From a virus, in the IMG/VR virus record IMGVR_UViG_3300023199_000070, positions 1 through 31,741 of that record: DNA of 31,741 bases; one strand, written 5' to 3'. Shown in pieces: positions 4,294-31,510 of the stretch. The stretch's first letter is position 1. Each line of letters opens with the position of its first letter. The notes below the pieces were generated by a model that searched no databases, was not told the origin of the DNA, and was given only the letters and a program-made list of their open reading frames with translations. A program made the translations under genes and the position numbers.

Positions 4294-4823
4294 TGCCCCG
4301 CCTCCGCCGCCCAAGCCGCGTCGAGATCGGCGAAGGTCTTCAGCGCCCCAGCCCGGACGCGGACCAAAACCGCGCGCTCAGCTGCATAAGCCATTTGAAC
4401 ATGGTTCGCCGCAGCCGCCACGATGGCCTCGAGATCGGCGGCGGTGATGTCGTGAAAGACGCCCCCGCCCTTAAAGGAAATCGGCTCCAGGATAAGACCA
4501 GCGGCCACCATCTCCCGCAGGCCGAGAAGCGTCGAGATGTCCTCGGGCCGCGTGTCGACCTGAACGCCCGAAACCTCGACGCCAGCCCAAATCCGCGCCT
4601 GGCGCAGTTGGCGCAGGCGCTCGGTCAAATCGGCCTCGGTCGGCTCAAGCTCGAATGGCACAGCCGACCCAGCCTCGATCCGATGCGTGCGCGGGCGCAC
4701 ATCTTGAGGCACTTCAAGCCAGTCATGCCCCGCGGGCGTGTTCCCGACCAAGAGGTTTGCGGGACCGGTGATGACCTTTCGGATCACCCCGTCCTGAGGA
4801 GTGTAGATCGCATATCTCGGCAT
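4290..4823 (-). CDS. DUF4376-like tail-fibre assembly protein
   Basis: This 177-residue protein opens with MPRYAIYTPQDGVIRKVITG, like the N-terminus of tail-fibre assembly proteins, then has a helical middle (LTERLRQLRQARIWAGVEVSG) and a C-terminal segment ISTLLGLREMVAAG with HDITAADLEAIVAA. That second half matches the DUF4376 pattern, in which an ITAADL segment is followed by a terminal helix. The ATG lies only three bases after the stop of the central tail protein. A chaperone for the adjacent fibre is the likely role. It shares the domain style with the 247-891 gene but little direct sequence. Confidence 0.65.
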   Translation of the reverse strand: MPRYAIYTPQDGVIRKVITGPANLLVGNTPAGHDWLEVPQDVRPRTHRIEAGSAVPFELEPTEADLTERLRQLRQARIWAGVEVSGVQVDTRPEDISTLLGLREMVAAGLILEPISFKGGGVFHDITAADLEAIVAAAANHVQMAYAAERAVLVRVRAGALKTFADLDAAWAAEAGQ

Positions 4824-21669: not shown

Positions 21670-22572
21670 TCAAGCCCTATCATGCGCCGCGCTGAGCGCA
21701 GCCCTCAAAGAGGAAACCAACGCCTCACCCGCCTTTCGCTTGTTCGCTCCGGAGCGCGGCCAACCATAGGCGCTGAGCGTTTGGCTGAGGGACCATCCGT
21801 CCACAGAGAGCCGGCGCACGAGATCGAGCCGCAAGAGAACCCGCGCGCGGCCCGTGCGCACAAGATCGGCCGGGCCGAGCGGCACCGGCCCGCCGGCCAT
21901 CGCCGCCTCCATGCGGCGGACCCACTCGGCCAGCCCGCAGCGCGCCGCGGCGCCGCCATCGGAGACCCCAGCCCCGCGCCCGCCGCCACACCCAGAACCG
22001 CCACCGTTGCCATGCTGCGGCAGGGTCGGGCTCGCCAGCCGTTCCACAAGATCCGCATAGCGGCGCGCAACCGCGCGCAGATCCTCGGGCAACGCCGACA
22101 CACCGCCCCGCGCCCCACGGCGAATCACGGGCTGCATCATCGTGACGACGCCATCCGTCTTGGCGTCATAGACGCTGACAGGCGCCTCAGAGAGATGCGC
22201 CGGGCCCGCGCCGAACGCCCGCACGGGGCCAGGCCCCACCGCCTCATCGCCCGATTCGGGAAAGGCAAGCGCCAGATCCAACGCCGCCTGCTCGCGCCGC
22301 ATGCGCCGCCACGTCTCCGCGTCGCCGACGGTCGCGAAACGATAGACCTGCACCCAGCCCCAGGCGCCATCCGCCAGATCGCACCACATCTCGACCGCGA
22401 CGCCGCCGTCCCAGCCCCTGGCGAGCCGCGTGTCGGCGCCGAGTGCCCGCCCTTCCATCTCTCGCCGAAGGGCGCGCGCTTCCTTTGAGGAAAGCCCTAC
22501 GACGGCCCGGCCTGGCCGCCAGTCAGGAGCCCCCTTCAGGACCCCTTCTCTCAGAACGTTTTTTTTAGACAT
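21670..22572 (-). CDS. Unknown 300-aa protein, candidate late gene regulator
   Basis: The ATG at 22572 follows AAAGGA by about seven bases. I do not recognise the family. The N-terminus is basic and tryptophan-containing, with SSKEARALRREMEG; a middle segment is glycine-rich; the C-terminal 70 residues have GRARVLLRLDLVRRLSVDGWSL and SAYGWPRSGANKRKAGEAL, which look like a helix-turn-helix. The gene is the last before the terminator and late operon, the position of lambda Q or RinA/ArpU-like regulators. Its own promoter region carries tandem GAACGAT copies. A late activator or antiterminator is the best guess, by position. Confidence 0.55.
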   Translation of the reverse strand: MSKKNVLREGVLKGAPDWRPGRAVVGLSSKEARALRREMEGRALGADTRLARGWDGGVAVEMWCDLADGAWGWVQVYRFATVGDAETWRRMRREQAALDLALAFPESGDEAVGPGPVRAFGAGPAHLSEAPVSVYDAKTDGVVTMMQPVIRRGARGGVSALPEDLRAVARRYADLVERLASPTLPQHGNGGGSGCGGGRGAGVSDGGAAARCGLAEWVRRMEAAMAGGPVPLGPADLVRTGRARVLLRLDLVRRLSVDGWSLSQTLSAYGWPRSGANKRKAGEALVSSLRAALSAAHDRA

Positions 22573-22596
22573 TCTCTTTTCCTTTCAATACCATCC

Positions 22597-22983
22597 GAAC
22601 GATCTGAACGATCAAAGCACTATGAAAGGAAAACTTGACTTCTGAGATGGAATGATGCCTCAGAACAGAATTCGACTGTCATTGTCAAATATCGTTCGGA
22701 TCGTTCGGATCGTTCGGCACCCATTGATTTCATTGGGGTTTCATGCAGAACGATGTCGGGATGATCGGAACGATCGAAAACCAAAACCCACCCGAGATGG
22801 CTCCCGCCGACCGGTCCGCTTGATGCCCAAACCCCGCGCCCGAACGATCAAACACCCCATATCGTTCCGAGATCGCGGCACATCGTTCGGCACGCATTGA
22901 TATCGTAAGGTTTTTGCCATCTCCCAGCATCTCAGCCCCGCTGGCCGGAGGGGCGCGGAAAATCCGTCCAAAACGGATCGTTC
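22597..22983. repeat. Cluster of eleven GAACGAT / ATCGTTC heptamers (iteron-like)
   Basis: Ten exact copies lie between 22597 and 22888 and an eleventh at 22977-22983. Start positions are 22597, 22606, 22691, 22700, 22709, 22748, 22768, 22842, 22861, 22882 and 22977. Five are GAACGAT on the plus strand and six are ATCGTTC. Three are tandem at a 9-bp spacing (22691-22717) and two others also at 9 bp. This is far above chance for a 360-bp gap without any gene. The region is AT-richer than its surroundings and contains a TTGACA (22688-22683) next to the triple repeat. It may be a replication origin or the operator of the 300-aa gene. Confidence 0.88.
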
Positions 22984-23345
22984 ACCGCCAGGCAGCGATG
23001 CCAGATGGCCCGGCCATCGGCCCTATGGCGCGCGATGGCCCAGGCCATGCCTCCGGTGATTCCGAAATCCCTATAAACCACCACAAGATCGGCTTGCGAC
23101 CACCAGGCCGCGCCGGCGGCCATGCCAAGCGCCCGCTCGGCCGGCACGTCATCATCGAGAAGCTGGGGCCAGTAGAGATGGCTGCCAAGCGCGGCAAACC
23201 CGTGCGCCAAGCAATCGGCCACCGCCGCGCGGGCATAGGCAAGATTGCGCGCCCGATCGCCGCGATAAGGGCTCTCGAGGATCACCGGGATCAAACCGCG
23301 CGTGCGACCGTGATATTTATGCATTGTAACCATCCCTAAACGCAC
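22932..23345 (-). CDS. DUF7768-like / nucleoside 2-deoxyribosyltransferase-like protein
   Basis: The frame gives 137 residues, starting GTG at 23345 after GAAGGGG; an ATG at 23333 is also possible. The pattern VILESPYRGDRARNLAYARA, FAALGSHLYWPQLLDDD, PAERALGMAAGAAWWSQADLVVVY and GITGGMAWAIARHR matches the DUF7768 family, which has a fold like DUF4406 and nucleoside deoxyribosyltransferase-type enzymes. In phages these often sit near replication genes. The biochemical role is unknown. It lies 14 bases after the helicase gene. Confidence 0.7.
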   Translation of the reverse strand: MRLGMVTMHKYHGRTRGLIPVILESPYRGDRARNLAYARAAVADCLAHGFAALGSHLYWPQLLDDDVPAERALGMAAGAAWWSQADLVVVYRDFGITGGMAWAIARHRADGRAIWHRCLAVNDPFWTDFPRPSGQRG

Positions 23346-23359
23346 GCGGCCACCCCTTC

Positions 23360-25000
23360 TCAGGGCGCGCCGCCATTATCCCGAACGCCCGAGACATCGA
23401 GCCATTTGCCGAGCGCGTCGGGCCGTGTCTCGTCGCCCGGCATCTTGATCCTCAGCCCGTGATAGATCCGATCCGACGCCTTTCCCGCTGCGCCGCGGAG
23501 AAAGCGGTGGCCCATCTCGCGCCCCAGCATTTGGGCCGAAGGTTTCTGCAAACCCTGCGCCTCCCACCAGCCATCAGCGACGGCGCGCAACGCCCTGAAA
23601 GAGACGCGATAGTCCGGCGCGCGATCGCAGCAATCGCGCAGAAACTGGCCGATAAGATCGCTCGCCTCGCGCAGCTCCCGACTCGCGTTCTCGATCTCAG
23701 CGGGCCGCCCAAGCCCGGCGCGGCGCCAATCTGCAAAGCCCTGCAGCGCCCAGTTGAGGATCCCGGGGGCCTCATCCATAAAATCCGCGAGAACCACGTC
23801 CATCGGCCGGCGCACCTCGCGCGGGATGGTCTGGGCGAATGGAATCACATGGATCCGGCGCCATGTGCCCTCGTCATGGCTCTTAATCTTGGGCGCGCGA
23901 TTGAAACTCACAAAGAGCTTCGCCTGGGGCGTAAACTCAAAGAAGCCTTCATTGAGGTGCCGGGCGAGAAGCGGCTCACCGCCCGTGAACTCCTTGATCT
24001 TGCTCTCATCGAGCTCGTCGCCCGTGCGGGGCTCCGAGGCGCGCAAGATCCGCATTCCAGGAACGCGCGCGATGTCGGGCGTCGCGCCCGCGCCATCGCC
24101 GCTGCGGGCGCGTAGAAAAGACTGGATCTTGATCGAGCCTGCATAAGGCCCGACAATCCGGGAAAGCGCCGAGATAATCGTCGATTTTCCGTTCGCGCCC
24201 TCGCCCTGCAGCATGAAACAGCACTGCTCGGCGATCGAGCCCGTGAGGCAATAGCCCGCCACGCGGCGCAGATAGGCCTGCGTGTCTGGATCTGGCTGGA
24301 TCATATCGAGGAAGGCTTGCCAGCGCGGCGCCGCACCGCGCGGATCGAACCGCACCGGGGCGCATATCGTCGCGCGATCTGCGGGGGCATGCGGGCCCAG
24401 CGCCTCGCCGGCCGCCTCGACCACCTCCTCGGGCTCCATCGCCTCGCCAAGCACGAGGCGCGAAAGATCGAGCCGGCCATTGGCGAGGTTGAGAACCATG
24501 GTGCGCGCATCGATCGCCTTCGGCTCGGTGCTGATGCCATCGATCCAGCGCATCTGATCGAGCGCCGCGCCCATCTTGGCGCGGCTCTCGCAGTCCCGCG
24601 CGAATTTGCGATGCGCGGCTACCCGCTTGGCGTGGATCGATTTCGCGCGATCTGCGACGGCCTCGCCGAGCTGCAGCCTCTCGACCTCGCGCCTGGCGGC
24701 AGCCTCGTCCGCCTCGGTGGGGCCGGCCGCGTCGATGGCGGCAGCCTCGTCCTCGATCAGCTTTGAGAGCGCCTGGGCGCGGCGATTGGCAAGCACCTCG
24801 CCCGCCTCCGCCTCGAAATGCGACCCGACCCACACCGCCCATCCGCGCGTGCGGATGTGGATCATCCGATCGCCATTGGCGGCGGCCAGGCGCCGAGCAT
24901 TACCGAGATCGGTGCGCGGCCAGCCGGCGCGGGTGATGAGGCTCGGCGCGCCGGCCGCGTCGAGATCGGCGGCGTCATAGGCGGCGTCCCACTCGGTCAC
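23360..25000 (-). CDS. D5/P4-type SF3 replicative helicase
   Basis: The GTG at 25000 overlaps the stop of the upstream gene (GTGA). The 546-residue protein has Walker A GEGANGKST (266-274), LRASEPRTGDELDESKIKEFTGG (strand and Walker B-like region), motif C KLFVSFNRAPKI (361-372) and the arginine region GTWRRIHVIPFAQTIP (379-392). These are the D5/P4-alpha helicase landmarks. There is no obvious N-terminal Toprim or prim-pol motif, so the protein is a helicase without its own primase and priming is probably done by a host or other factor. The helicase opens DNA at the origin, possibly at the heptamer cluster 380 bases downstream. Confidence 0.87.
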   Translation of the reverse strand: MTEWDAAYDAADLDAAGAPSLITRAGWPRTDLGNARRLAAANGDRMIHIRTRGWAVWVGSHFEAEAGEVLANRRAQALSKLIEDEAAAIDAAGPTEADEAAARREVERLQLGEAVADRAKSIHAKRVAAHRKFARDCESRAKMGAALDQMRWIDGISTEPKAIDARTMVLNLANGRLDLSRLVLGEAMEPEEVVEAAGEALGPHAPADRATICAPVRFDPRGAAPRWQAFLDMIQPDPDTQAYLRRVAGYCLTGSIAEQCCFMLQGEGANGKSTIISALSRIVGPYAGSIKIQSFLRARSGDGAGATPDIARVPGMRILRASEPRTGDELDESKIKEFTGGEPLLARHLNEGFFEFTPQAKLFVSFNRAPKIKSHDEGTWRRIHVIPFAQTIPREVRRPMDVVLADFMDEAPGILNWALQGFADWRRAGLGRPAEIENASRELREASDLIGQFLRDCCDRAPDYRVSFRALRAVADGWWEAQGLQKPSAQMLGREMGHRFLRGAAGKASDRIYHGLRIKMPGDETRPDALGKWLDVSGVRDNGGAP

Positions 25001-25413
25001 CCGATCACCTTTTGCGCGAAACTGAGGAAGCCGCGCTTGTCGTCATCCGAGAGGGATTTGAAAATCGCGGCGACATAGGCCTTGCGCTCGTGAAGTGTGG
25101 CAAAGCGCGCCCAATCCGCCGCCGCCTCTGCATGGGTCTCCATGCCGACCCAAAGCGGCAAGGGCTGCCCCGCCGGCCCAGTGGCATCGACAGCCCAGGC
25201 CGCCACTTCATAGGCCGAGCGGCGCGGCAAGGCGGCGAGCGCCCCCATGGCGAGCGTCACCCGCTCGCCATGGGCGAGCCTCTTAAGAAGCGCGCCGATG
25301 GCATCGGCCTCGGCGAGCGGATCTTGCCCGGCCTCAGCGCGGAGAAGATGAACGCGAACCTCACGCCACAACGTGCGGCCGAGATCGGCCGGACCTGCCC
25401 CCCCGCCATCCAT
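24997..25413 (-). CDS. Conserved early phage protein, unknown
   Basis: A 138-residue, mostly helical protein starting MDGGGAGPADLGRTLWREV, with RRSAYEVAAWAVDATGPAG and a C-terminal AYVAAIFKSLSDDDKRGFLSF. It overlaps the upstream and downstream genes by one and four bases (TGATG, GTGA), so it is coupled to the helicase. The family is not recognised. A role in replication, for example as helicase partner, is inferred only from coupling. Confidence 0.65.
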   Translation of the reverse strand: MDGGGAGPADLGRTLWREVRVHLLRAEAGQDPLAEADAIGALLKRLAHGERVTLAMGALAALPRRSAYEVAAWAVDATGPAGQPLPLWVGMETHAEAAADWARFATLHERKAYVAAIFKSLSDDDKRGFLSFAQKVIG

Positions 25414-25796
25414 CAGCTCCGCCCGAAAAGATCCGGCTGAACGATTGGCGGGGTCTCGCCCCCGCCGGGCGCGCGACCGTCGGATTGGCCCGCATGATGG
25501 TTGCCATCAGCCCCGGGCTGTTGCGCCAAGAGCCCGCCGCCACTTGAGGTGTTCGGGGCAGCGTCAGGCTCGCGATCCGACTTTTTGAAGTGCTGCGACA
25601 CACTTGGAGAATGGGCCGATCCCCGATCTCGCCGTGCCTCCGCCCAAGGCACATGCTGGGCGCAGGCAGAAAAGGGCGCCCGCCATCCGGGCGGGCCGAA
25701 ACCGAAAGGCGCCGGGCGCCCGCAGCCGGGATGCGCGCAAAGGGGCGGCACTGAGGCGGCGGCGCGGTCGAGCGATATGGCGGCGCGCGATGTCAC
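25413..25796 (-). CDS. Zinc-binding small protein with a QPDLF tail
   Basis: The GTG at 25796 overlaps the previous stop (GTGA) and follows GGAGG, giving 127 residues. A CAHPGCGRPAPFGFGPPG segment and SACAQH make a Cys/His zinc-binding knuckle. After a low-complexity linker the end reads PPIVQPDLFGRS, which contains QPDLF, a match to the beta sliding-clamp binding motif QxxLF/QLxLF. The combination suggests a replication-linked protein. Function is unknown, but the tail motif is the most informative feature. Confidence 0.6.
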   Translation of the reverse strand: MTSRAAISLDRAAASVPPLCAHPGCGRPAPFGFGPPGWRAPFSACAQHVPWAEARRDRGSAHSPSVSQHFKKSDREPDAAPNTSSGGGLLAQQPGADGNHHAGQSDGRAPGGGETPPIVQPDLFGRS

Positions 25797-25963
25797 TCGC
25801 CCCTCCGGCCGATGAGCGCGCGCGCCCACACCGCCATGGCGGCAAGTGCGTCACGCGCCTTGATCGCGGGATAGAGCAGCGCCGAAATCGACAGGTGCAA
25901 CACGAGAAGCGTGCGCCATATGGCGACGCCAAGACAGCGCTCGATCCATGGCAGATGGCTCAC
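25793..25963 (-). CDS. Small single-span membrane protein
   Basis: The GTG at 25963 overlaps the previous stop by four bases (GTGA) and follows GGGGAGG, giving 56 residues. A hydrophobic segment AIWRTLLVLHLSISALLYPAI (about 14-34) forms one membrane helix. The rest is short and positively charged. I do not recognise it. It is translation-coupled with genes of the early operon. Confidence 0.65.
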   Translation of the reverse strand: MSHLPWIERCLGVAIWRTLLVLHLSISALLYPAIKARDALAAMAVWARALIGRRGE

Positions 25964-26584: not shown

Positions 26585-26637
26585 GCGGGCCGAATTGGCG
26601 TTAGCCGAAAAAAAACTCCTGGGGCAAGTTGGCCCGC

Positions 26638-26961
26638 ATGACAGACACGCGCAAATCGAGAAACAGCCAGGCACCCACGTCGATGAAGCCCACTCAAGTC
26701 GGATTGCGCCTGACCGCCGCGCGGCTCGCCGTGGGCTTCGATGTGCGCATGCACCTTGCCGACGACCTCGAAATCGACCGATCGGCGCTGACCAAATACG
26801 AGCTCGGCCAGCGGCTGCTGCCCGATTACATCGCGGTTCGCTTTTGCGACCGATATGGCATCACCTTGGATTGGCTGTATCGCGGCCGGCCGGATGGGAT
26901 CGAGCAGCCCTTGCGATCCGAAATCCTGCGGCGCTTCGACACCTTGAGGCCGCGGTCGTAG
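26638..26961 (+). CDS. CI-type transcriptional repressor, HTH only
   Basis: I take ATG 26638 (after GGGG) giving 107 residues; TTG 26629 would add three. Residues about 24-83 (RLTAARLAVGFDV, RSALTKYELGQRLLP, FCDRYGITLDWLYRG) are a xenobiotic-response type HTH. It is divergent from the Cro-like gene and flanked by GGGAC dyads on both sides, which suggests it is the immunity repressor. It has no peptidase S24 domain, so it would not be self-cleaved in the SOS response, and induction must depend on another factor. A weaker dyad (GGGGCAAGTTGGCCC, 26621-26635) overlaps its ribosome-binding region. Confidence 0.8.
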   Translation: MTDTRKSRNSQAPTSMKPTQVGLRLTAARLAVGFDVRMHLADDLEIDRSALTKYELGQRLLPDYIAVRFCDRYGITLDWLYRGRPDGIEQPLRSEILRRFDTLRPRS

Positions 26962-28605: not shown

Positions 28606-28662
28606 TCGACGGTGCCGGGCGCGGGCGCCCGCGCCCGGAAGGCCCCCAATGGGGCATGTCAA

Positions 28663-28960
28663 GGCGGTTATGGCGGGGCCCGGCGCGGCTTGGCAAGGCT
28701 CGGCGGTTGTGGCGTGGCCAGGCCAGGCTGGGCACGGCTAGGCTCGGCACGGCGGGGCGAGGCGGTTACGGCACGGCCGGGCGAGGCCAGGCTGGGCTAG
28801 GCTCGGCACGGCGGGGCGAGGCGGTTATGGCACGGCAAGGCGAGGCGAGGCGAGGCGAGGCGAGGCGGGGCCTGGCAAGGCTCGGCACGGCTCGGCGGTT
28901 GTGGCGTGGCCTGGCTGGGCCCGGCTGGGCTCGGCGGGGCGAGGCGAGGCGGTTGTGGTC
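28663..28960. repeat. Tract of 5-bp GGCNN-type repeats with six GGCGGTT anchors
   Basis: A G-rich tract made of 5-bp units on the GGCNN pattern (GGCAA, GGCTC, GGCAC, GGCGA). Six copies of GGCGGTT(A/G)YGG start at 28663, 28702, 28761, 28820, 28894 and 28948, at intervals of 39, 59, 59, 74 and 54 bp, each one less than a multiple of five. It fills the gap 28606-29021 with no convincing gene; the open frame across it is arginine- and glycine-rich by composition. Confidence 0.85.
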
Positions 28961-30125: not shown

Positions 30126-30310
30126 CGCCGCCCACGAAAGCCGTCATTACGCGGGCGATCCGGGCTGTGGAGGGCCAGGGCCTCAGCGTCCGCGCGGTCG
30201 AGATCGAAGGCGCCACGGTGCGCTTGATTGTCGGCGGCAAGGCGATAGGCTCGTCTGATCCCGTTGAGAAATGGTTTGCGGAACATGGTTGCGAGGCGCG
30301 GCAAGATTAA
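30122..30310 (+). CDS. Small protein preceding integrase, possible excisionase position
   Basis: The ATG at 30122 overlaps the previous stop (ATGA), giving 62 residues starting MTPPTKAVITRAIRAVEGQG, with ATVRLIVGGKAIG strands and a DPVEKWFAEHG end. Proteins of this type sit right before integrases in many alphaproteobacterial prophages, which suggests a recombination directionality or partner role, but no DNA-binding motif is proven. It overlaps the integrase start by 26 bases. Confidence 0.65.
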   Translation: MTPPTKAVITRAIRAVEGQGLSVRAVEIEGATVRLIVGGKAIGSSDPVEKWFAEHGCEARQD

Positions 30311-31376
30311 GGGCGTGCACGTCTTCCGGCGCCGGCTGGCCGGCGGGCGGGTCGTCGAATATCACCGGGTGCGCGGCCTGCGCGGGTCGCTCTTTTGGAA
30401 GACCGGGGATGACTGCGCGCCCGGATCGCCCGAATATGAGCGCCGTTTCCTCGCCGCGCGGAGCGGCGAGCACCCCCTTGCCGCGAAGACCCAAAGCCCC
30501 GCCACCTTCGGCGGCATCATCACCGCGTTCTACGCCTCGGCGGATTTTGCGGCGCTCGGCGCCCGGACCAGGGCCGACTATCGCCTTTGGGGCGATCGCG
30601 CGCGCGAGAAATTCGGCACCGCGCCCAAGGGCGCGTTCGAGCGGCCGGAGATCCGCGCCGTCGCCATGGCCTTGCGCGACCAGTGGCGCGGCAAGCAGGC
30701 GCACCAGGCATGGGCGGTGCTGCGCCGCGTCGTCTCCTGGGCCTACAAGCGCGGGCTCCTCGATGCCCACCATTTCCGCGATGGCGGGAAGGTCTACCAC
30801 CGCACGCGCCGCGCCGAGATTGTGTGGACCCCCGACGAACGCGCCGCGATCGAGAAGGCCGCGCCCGATTGGGTGCGCCGCGCCTTCATCGGCGCCTGCG
30901 AGACCGGGCTCCGGCCGGGTGATCTGGTCCGCCTCAGCCGCGCGCATATTGAGGCGAGCCCGCGCGGGCGCGCGATCCGCATCCGAACGGGCAAGCGCGG
31001 GCGAATGGCGGTGGTGCCGGTCAGCCCGGCGATGGCGGGCGTGATCGACGAGACACCGCCGGGCCGGCTCCTCATCTTCACGACCGAGGCCGGCCGCCCG
31101 ATCGATCCCGGATACCTCTCGCGGAAGGTGAAGGAAATCCGCCGCGCGTGCGAGCTGCGCGAGGATCTGCGCCTCTATGACTGCAGGGGCACGGCGGCCA
31201 GCGCGCTCTTGCACGCGGGCGCATCGCTCAACCAGATTGCGGTTGCCATGGGCTGGTCGCTCCACTACGCGCAAGGCGTCATCGAAGACTATGCGGCAAC
31301 CCTATCCGACCCGGATGCCGTCCTGGACCTTCTCTTGCGGGCGCGGGCGAAGGCGGAAACGGGAACGAAATTGTAA
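30285..31376 (+). CDS. int: Tyrosine integrase
   Basis: The ATG at 30285 gives 363 residues; a TTG at 30264 is upstream. The catalytic domain has R210 in ETGLRPGDLVRL, K237 in RTGKRGRMAVV, YDCR (298-301) in place of HxxR, W324 in AMGWS and the nucleophile Y336 in VIEDYA. The N-terminal half carries the usual arm and core binding domains. The first catalytic histidine is a tyrosine, a change also seen in some phage members as I recall. It ends 46 bp before tRNA-Ser, which suggests that the tRNA is the attachment site. Confidence 0.9.
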   Translation: MVARRGKIKGVHVFRRRLAGGRVVEYHRVRGLRGSLFWKTGDDCAPGSPEYERRFLAARSGEHPLAAKTQSPATFGGIITAFYASADFAALGARTRADYRLWGDRAREKFGTAPKGAFERPEIRAVAMALRDQWRGKQAHQAWAVLRRVVSWAYKRGLLDAHHFRDGGKVYHRTRRAEIVWTPDERAAIEKAAPDWVRRAFIGACETGLRPGDLVRLSRAHIEASPRGRAIRIRTGKRGRMAVVPVSPAMAGVIDETPPGRLLIFTTEAGRPIDPGYLSRKVKEIRRACELREDLRLYDCRGTAASALLHAGASLNQIAVAMGWSLHYAQGVIEDYAATLSDPDAVLDLLLRARAKAETGTKL

Positions 31377-31422
31377 CATGGGGTGTAACACGCACCCCCA
31401 AAAACCCGCTAAGTCATTGATG
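31377..31422. other. Possible integrase arm-site region between int and tRNA-Ser
   Basis: TGTAACA occurs twice, 12 bp apart (31372-31378 and 31384-31390), and GGGGTGT-AACAC-GCACCCC forms a hairpin. A short AT-richer segment then leads into the tRNA. This may contain integrase binding sites. Confidence 0.4.
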
Positions 31423-31510
31423 GGAAGGGTGGCAGAGTGGTCGATTGCGGCGGTCTTGAAAACCGTTGAACCGAGAGGTTCCGTGGGTTCGAATCCCACC
31501 CCTTCCGCCA
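31423..31510 (+). tRNA. tRNA-Ser (UGA)
   Basis: An 88-base tRNA with acceptor stem GGAAGGG / CCCTTCC, long variable arm, TpsiC loop GGTTCGAATCC, and encoded CCA. The anticodon loop CTTGAAA gives UGA (31457-31459). The integrase lies on its 5' side. The phage end would thus carry or rebuild the 5' part of the gene, unlike the common 3'-end integration. Confidence 0.95.

Follow-up and report, generated by a model that had tools for sequence, protein, structure and literature searches.

A GAACGAT iteron array behind a D5/P4-family helicase gene is a probable replication origin of a temperate HK97-type phage

What purpose does a dense cluster of a single heptamer, GAACGAT, serve at the boundary between the replication genes and the late genes of a phage? 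The question is raised by a virus record of IMG/VR (IMGVR_UViG_3300023199_000070), of which a stretch of 31,741 bp, in the following called the window, was analyzed. An earlier note on this DNA had proposed the cluster as a candidate origin of replication and had named a binding array for a regulator as the alternative. Our results indicate that the array is very probably an iteron-type replication origin that is used by the D5/P4-family SF3 helicase encoded beside it. The window encodes TerL, portal, protease, capsid, tape measure and integrase proteins, and its source is a temperate HK97-type phage. Since the set of virion genes is complete, the window represents a phage and not a PICI satellite, and only the putative origin is PICI-like. 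A tyrosine integrase is encoded beside a whole tRNA-Ser gene (30264-31510), which is likely the attachment site. Elsewhere in the window, G-rich tandem repeats of 10 and 15 bp (GGCGAGGCGA, GGCTAGGCTC) were observed at 28662-28951, where the GC skew is reversed and no gene is evident, and a tRNA-Gln called by ARAGORN within the tail genes (4306-4401) is probably a false call.

Exact copies of GAACGAT or its complement ATCGTTC occur 12 times in the window, compared to a mean of 5.6 in shuffled sequences. Eleven of them are concentrated in 387 bp (22597-22983) in both orientations, as the earlier note had described, and the heptamer is not comparably dense elsewhere, the twelfth copy at 25439 being the sole one outside the array. 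The first ten copies occupy exactly the 292 bp that had been claimed (22597-22888) and include the three perfect 9-bp tandem units (ATCGTTCGG, 22691-22717). The statement that the cluster lies in a gene-free gap is correct for these ten copies but not for the eleventh (22977), which falls within the 3'-terminal part of the DUF7768 gene (22932-23345). With its 11 copies, the array is the largest 387-bp cluster of any 7-mer in the whole window; in 60 dinucleotide shuffles of the window, the largest 7-mer cluster comprised 4 (33 times), 5 (24 times) or 6 copies (3 times). When the window was searched with a profile derived from the sites, ten of the 11 sites were the top ten matches and the last site ranked twelfth, a result that is partly expected for a profile built from those very sites. 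The GAACGAT array is a single cluster and not a product of chance. We found no array of the same word in other phages. The triple ATCGTTCNN occurs in 11 viral contigs, none of which has a D5 gene and which never contain more than seven scattered copies, and these occurrences were judged to be due to chance. Because no other phage with this word in an array was found, GAACGAT itself is not touched by the conservation test described below.

Table 1. Coordinates of the array, its parts and the neighbouring genes in the window
Feature	Position	Strand	Remarks
300-aa gene behind the putative origin	21670..22572	-	no family match
Gene-free gap, putative origin	22573..22931	.	GC 50% vs ~65% regional
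11-bp perfect inverted repeat around block A	22577-22587 + 22623-22633		TTTTCCTTTCA / TGAAAGGAAAA
Iteron block A, pair of GAACGAT units at 9-bp distance	22597..22612	+	exact matches at 22597 and 22606
Spacer between facing blocks, candidate DNA unwinding element	22613..22690	.	78 bp, GC 38%
Iteron block B, triple GAACGAT with an exact 9-bp period, opposed to block A	22691..22717	-	ATCGTTCGG on +; sites at 22691, 22700 and 22709
Two accessory iterons	22748..22774	+	exact matches at 22748 and 22768
Accessory iteron	22842..22848	+	exact match
Two accessory iterons	22861..22888	-	exact matches at 22861 and 22882
Outermost iteron, in DUF7768 gene 3' end	22977..22983	-	exact match
DUF7768 gene (nucleoside deoxyribosyltransferase-like), located between the array and the helicase gene	22932..23345	-	
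D5/P4-family SF3 helicase, proposed initiator	23360..25000	-	TIGR01613, D5_N and PHROG matches

All genes around the array are on the - strand, in the order of two 138-aa genes, the D5 helicase, DUF7768, the gap, the 300-aa gene, an HNH gene and the terminase (Table 1). Neither of the 138-aa genes that lie upstream of the helicase (24997-25829) has a family match, and no separate primase was recognized among the replication genes tested. Within the array, blocks A (++) and B (---) represent two opposed iteron sets that flank an AT-rich region, an arrangement that we used as a criterion for an origin, and six further copies follow beyond these core blocks (22748-22983). The GC skew does not switch its sign at the array. 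The array has the facing pairs and the AT-rich spacer in common with its relatives, but its mirror symmetry was not significant (p 0.23), unlike in loci L017, L024 and L073; among 41 arrays, eight had p<0.05 with a combined p of 0.16, so that mirror symmetry is a property of some lineages only. A 10.5-bp helical phase between the facing blocks was considered as well and was not supported (p 0.22).

The array lies 3' of a D5/P4-type SF3 helicase gene, 376-763 nt past its stop codon, with DUF7768 as the one gene in between. The helicase matched TIGR01613 ('P4 family') with 213 bits, D5_N with an E-value of 5e-18 and the PHROG for DNA primase with 4e-103. For its AF2 model (pLDDT 89), the best solved match was the SaPI5 primase-helicase 7om0 (Z 27.5, 392 aligned residues, rmsd 4.7), which was near full-length and with which poxvirus D5/E5 structures tied. 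A profile search with the helicase recovered 7ola (E 9e-19) over the C-terminal half. According to the DSSP line of the AF2 model, residues 449-518 form a helix-strand-helix-helix-strand succession at good confidence, and this segment is thus predicted to be ordered as in a winged helix.

If the array is an origin for this helicase, comparable arrays may be expected behind other D5 genes. With an alignment of D5 proteins as query, 80 viral and 20 genome loci were obtained, while scanning with the D5 protein alone yielded none; 99 loci, including the window and three phage records, were usable. To be counted, a locus had to contain, behind the D5 stop, a 7-mer with four or more exact copies, present in both orientations and with a tandem spacing of 8-11 bp, and its copy number had to exceed that in each of 40 shuffled versions of the region. 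Such an array with a locus-specific 7-mer was found in 66 of the 99 loci, mostly ~0-400 bp 3' of the stop. Unlike in most of these relatives, the array of the window begins 376 bp from the stop behind another gene. The words vary (ATCCTCC, CCTTCCA, AACCCTC, CGTCACC, GCTGTCC and others), the same-strand spacing within the range of 8-11 bp was 9 bp in 79 of 134 cases, and the facing blocks are commonly 70-87 bp apart. When the loci were divided into tiles of 1,030 bp, arrays of at least five copies were present in 61 of 98 tiles downstream of D5 versus 10 of 711 other tiles, and arrays of at least six copies in 52 of 98 versus 1 of 711. The lone tile with at least six copies that was not directly downstream (L011) lies ~1.7 kb behind a D5 gene. 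The strict array was missing in a third of the D5 loci, some of which contain 6-mer arrays. Cronusvirus RcRhea and R4C were also missed by the strict rule, yet resemble the window in having 9-bp repeats in a gap between the D5 helicase and a small G-rich-linker protein; they differ from it in their words (TAGGGGACT three times in RcRhea, AGGGAGTTAGGGAGGG in R4C), and their records are without origin annotation. Apart from the origin array, a second array of CGTTAAC (five copies, 8-13 bp spacing) was observed ~1.5 kb behind the D5 stop in L080, L085, L087 and L094, and another CGTTAAC array ~3.3 kb behind the stop in L006; these second arrays are possibly packaging or regulatory sites.

Several origins that are already recognized, which served as positive controls for the scan, share this layout. 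The record of Streptococcus phage Sfi21 contains a 302-bp origin (34487-34784) directly behind the primase gene, in which our scan found GTAACTA at 34577-, 34585-, 34663+ and 34671+. Like the putative origin in the window, it is a non-coding element behind a D5-type primase gene with facing tandem pairs round an AT-rich centre. It differs in its word, its 8-bp spacing and the unrelated host, and its origin function has been shown: the element acts as an independent origin, and extra copies of Sfi21-type origins block phages (PMC6356513). In Lactobacillus phage A2, a rep_origin (32208-32717) is likewise annotated 3' of the primase gene, and ACGGGAG was detected seven times, in both orientations, at 32226-32473; the word is different, the host is a low-GC Gram-positive bacterium and the origin annotation is as deposited. 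In the satellite phage P4, crr is located 3' of the alpha gene and carries type 1 repeats of 8 bp, annotated 9 bp apart and in both orientations; the scan recovered these repeats in crr and also in ori. P4 resembles the window in this 9-10 bp spacing and in the two orientations of the repeats, which in P4 are read by the alpha helicase-primase, but has two separate sites (ori and crr), a fused primase and the word GGTGAACA.

The closest description in the literature is that of PICI origins, in which an AT-rich region lies between two sets of iterons downstream of rep, an organization that was stated to be shared by no other known replicon (PMC6092414). Autonomous replication of the origin segment was reported for PICIs (PMC6092414) as well as for Sfi21 (PMC6356513). 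In SaPIs, Rep is reported to read, with its C-terminal domain, the iterons directly downstream of its own gene, apparently as two hexamers (PMC7581432). The window has in common with SaPIbov1, SaPI5 and EcCICFT073 the two iteron sets, the AT-rich middle and the position 3' of a gene for a helicase-type initiator. In contrast to these satellites, it derives from a phage, carries GAACGAT at a 9-bp period in a putative origin and has DUF7768 between helicase and array. By its layout, the putative origin is of the PICI/P4/Sfi21 type and hence of a kind already known. Plasmids with a D5 gene extend the comparison: of five examined, those from Bacillus, Methylobacterium, Singulisphaera and Streptomyces carry an array 3' of D5, the stop of the Bacillus gene being estimated from where the match ends. 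The Thermaerobacter plasmid contains a P4-like GGTTCAC cluster upstream, not downstream, of D5 (L123:753-949). The equivalent arrays in most related phages, in the recognized origins of Sfi21, A2 and P4 and in plasmids, together with the covariation of word and helicase described below, strongly support the earlier view of the array as an origin candidate.

The array might have a second function in addition to that of an origin, in that the iterons also act on a late promoter and helicase loading or replication times the expression of the 300-aa gene. Such an added role would be compatible with the origin, and the array of the window indeed touches the leader of the 300-aa gene. In several loci, moreover, the gene behind the array encodes a transcription factor, e.g. 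a NusG-type antiterminator. One family of first genes behind the array was observed in L014, L024, L025, L027, L043, L044, L048 and L055, and all four members tested (L014, L024, L043 and L048) matched NusG (PF02357), indicating that phage antiterminators sit at the replication/late boundary. However, gene order alone would yield the same picture, and no sigma-70-type promoter was recognized on the - strand of the gap by a consensus scan, although activator-dependent promoters can lack a consensus. The TTGACA that had been pointed out at the triple unit does adjoin block B, but it is not accompanied by a recognizable -10 element. Taken together, we regard the additional timing role as rather unlikely.

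Still less probable is that GAACGAT forms the operator array of the 300-aa protein, acting as a late regulator of its own gene and the late operon. The array is located directly in front of the 300-aa gene, with block A just upstream of the Shine-Dalgarno sequence and the TTGACA abutting block B, and proteins of similar make-up are encoded at the same place in Cronusvirus, L083, L099 and L103, where the resemblance concerns the C-terminal half of the 300-aa protein. Close relatives of this protein were not found in peptide-pattern scans of viral and genome contigs, by tblastn against phages or in Pfam, PHROGs, NCBIfam and PDB sequences, and given this lack of a family match and its poor AF2 model (pLDDT 45), no DNA-binding domain could be assigned to it. 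The genes that follow arrays of this geometry are of unrelated kinds, namely NusG, DUF6362/phrog_6836, phrog_9306, phrog_27826-like, 300-aa type and terminase small subunit genes, and such arrays also follow D5 in plasmids. In 55 dereplicated loci, which were sampled non-randomly via conserved D5 peptides and are not independent where related, a correlation was found between the similarity of the words and helicase identity (Mantel r 0.36, p 0.0005), which persisted when the downstream gene was held constant (r 0.34). In contrast, no residual link to the downstream protein was detected with the helicase held constant (r 0.01, p 0.43), in a comparison that used same-strand ORFs and a coarse measure of word similarity. 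It is the helicase that the repeat word follows, with no dependence on the downstream gene left after correction for the helicase; within the helicase, the ATPase domain correlates with the word at least as well as the C-terminus. Since the downstream gene varies and the array stays with D5, a regulator array is not supported as the main role.

A long stem-loop recognized by its structure, as proposed for pRN1 and BIP-1, instead of iterons read by a protein is very improbable: a stem-loop can be drawn for the single strand because blocks A and B form a 23-nt inverted repeat with 91% complementarity, and the strand folds slightly better than shuffles (z -2.0), but such a stem follows from facing iterons, the accessory copies lie outside it, and no hairpin is required to explain the words that recur at a spacing of 9 bp in many phages, so that the hairpin is accounted for by the iterons. 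In BIP-1 itself, for which a stem-loop was reported 3' of the replication gene (PMC4234260, the pRN1 paper), we found facing 9-bp AAACGAGGC pairs 3' of this gene (26607-26711; L109:2608-2712), and the published stem-loop may consist of facing iterons.

We therefore return to the iteron origin and infer the following course of initiation. GAACGAT would be the iteron that is recognized by the D5 helicase encoded just upstream, probably via its C-terminal winged-helix-like domain. Helicase subunits would load on block A (++, 22597/22606) and on the facing block B (---, 22691/22700/22709) and assemble into two opposed hexamers, which could then melt the 78-bp AT-rich spacer between the blocks, and replication would start in both directions. 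The outlying sites (22748-22983) may add binding capacity.

It is tempting to extend this model: a 3'-iteron origin would then be standard in all phages and plasmids with a D5/P4-family helicase, each helicase having its own 7-mer as a 'code', and the array at the replication/late boundary would in addition time the expression of the late regulator by linking it to helicase loading. At present, however, we consider this full generalization doubtful. In its narrower form, the analysis places the probable origin of this phage and provides a simple rule, a search 3' of D5 for facing blocks in which a 7-mer recurs every 8-10 bp, which points to candidate origins in most of the D5-type phages and several of the plasmids examined. 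The sequence comparisons suggest that the PICI-like 3'-iteron layout is common among D5-type phages. Within the open-access papers covered, it is this breadth that goes beyond the routine assignment of an origin, as the layout that was held to be unique (PMC6092414) follows D5 genes widely, and it bears on the question where PICIs acquired their replicon. The many pairs of helicase and word make the specificity between initiator and iteron directly testable.
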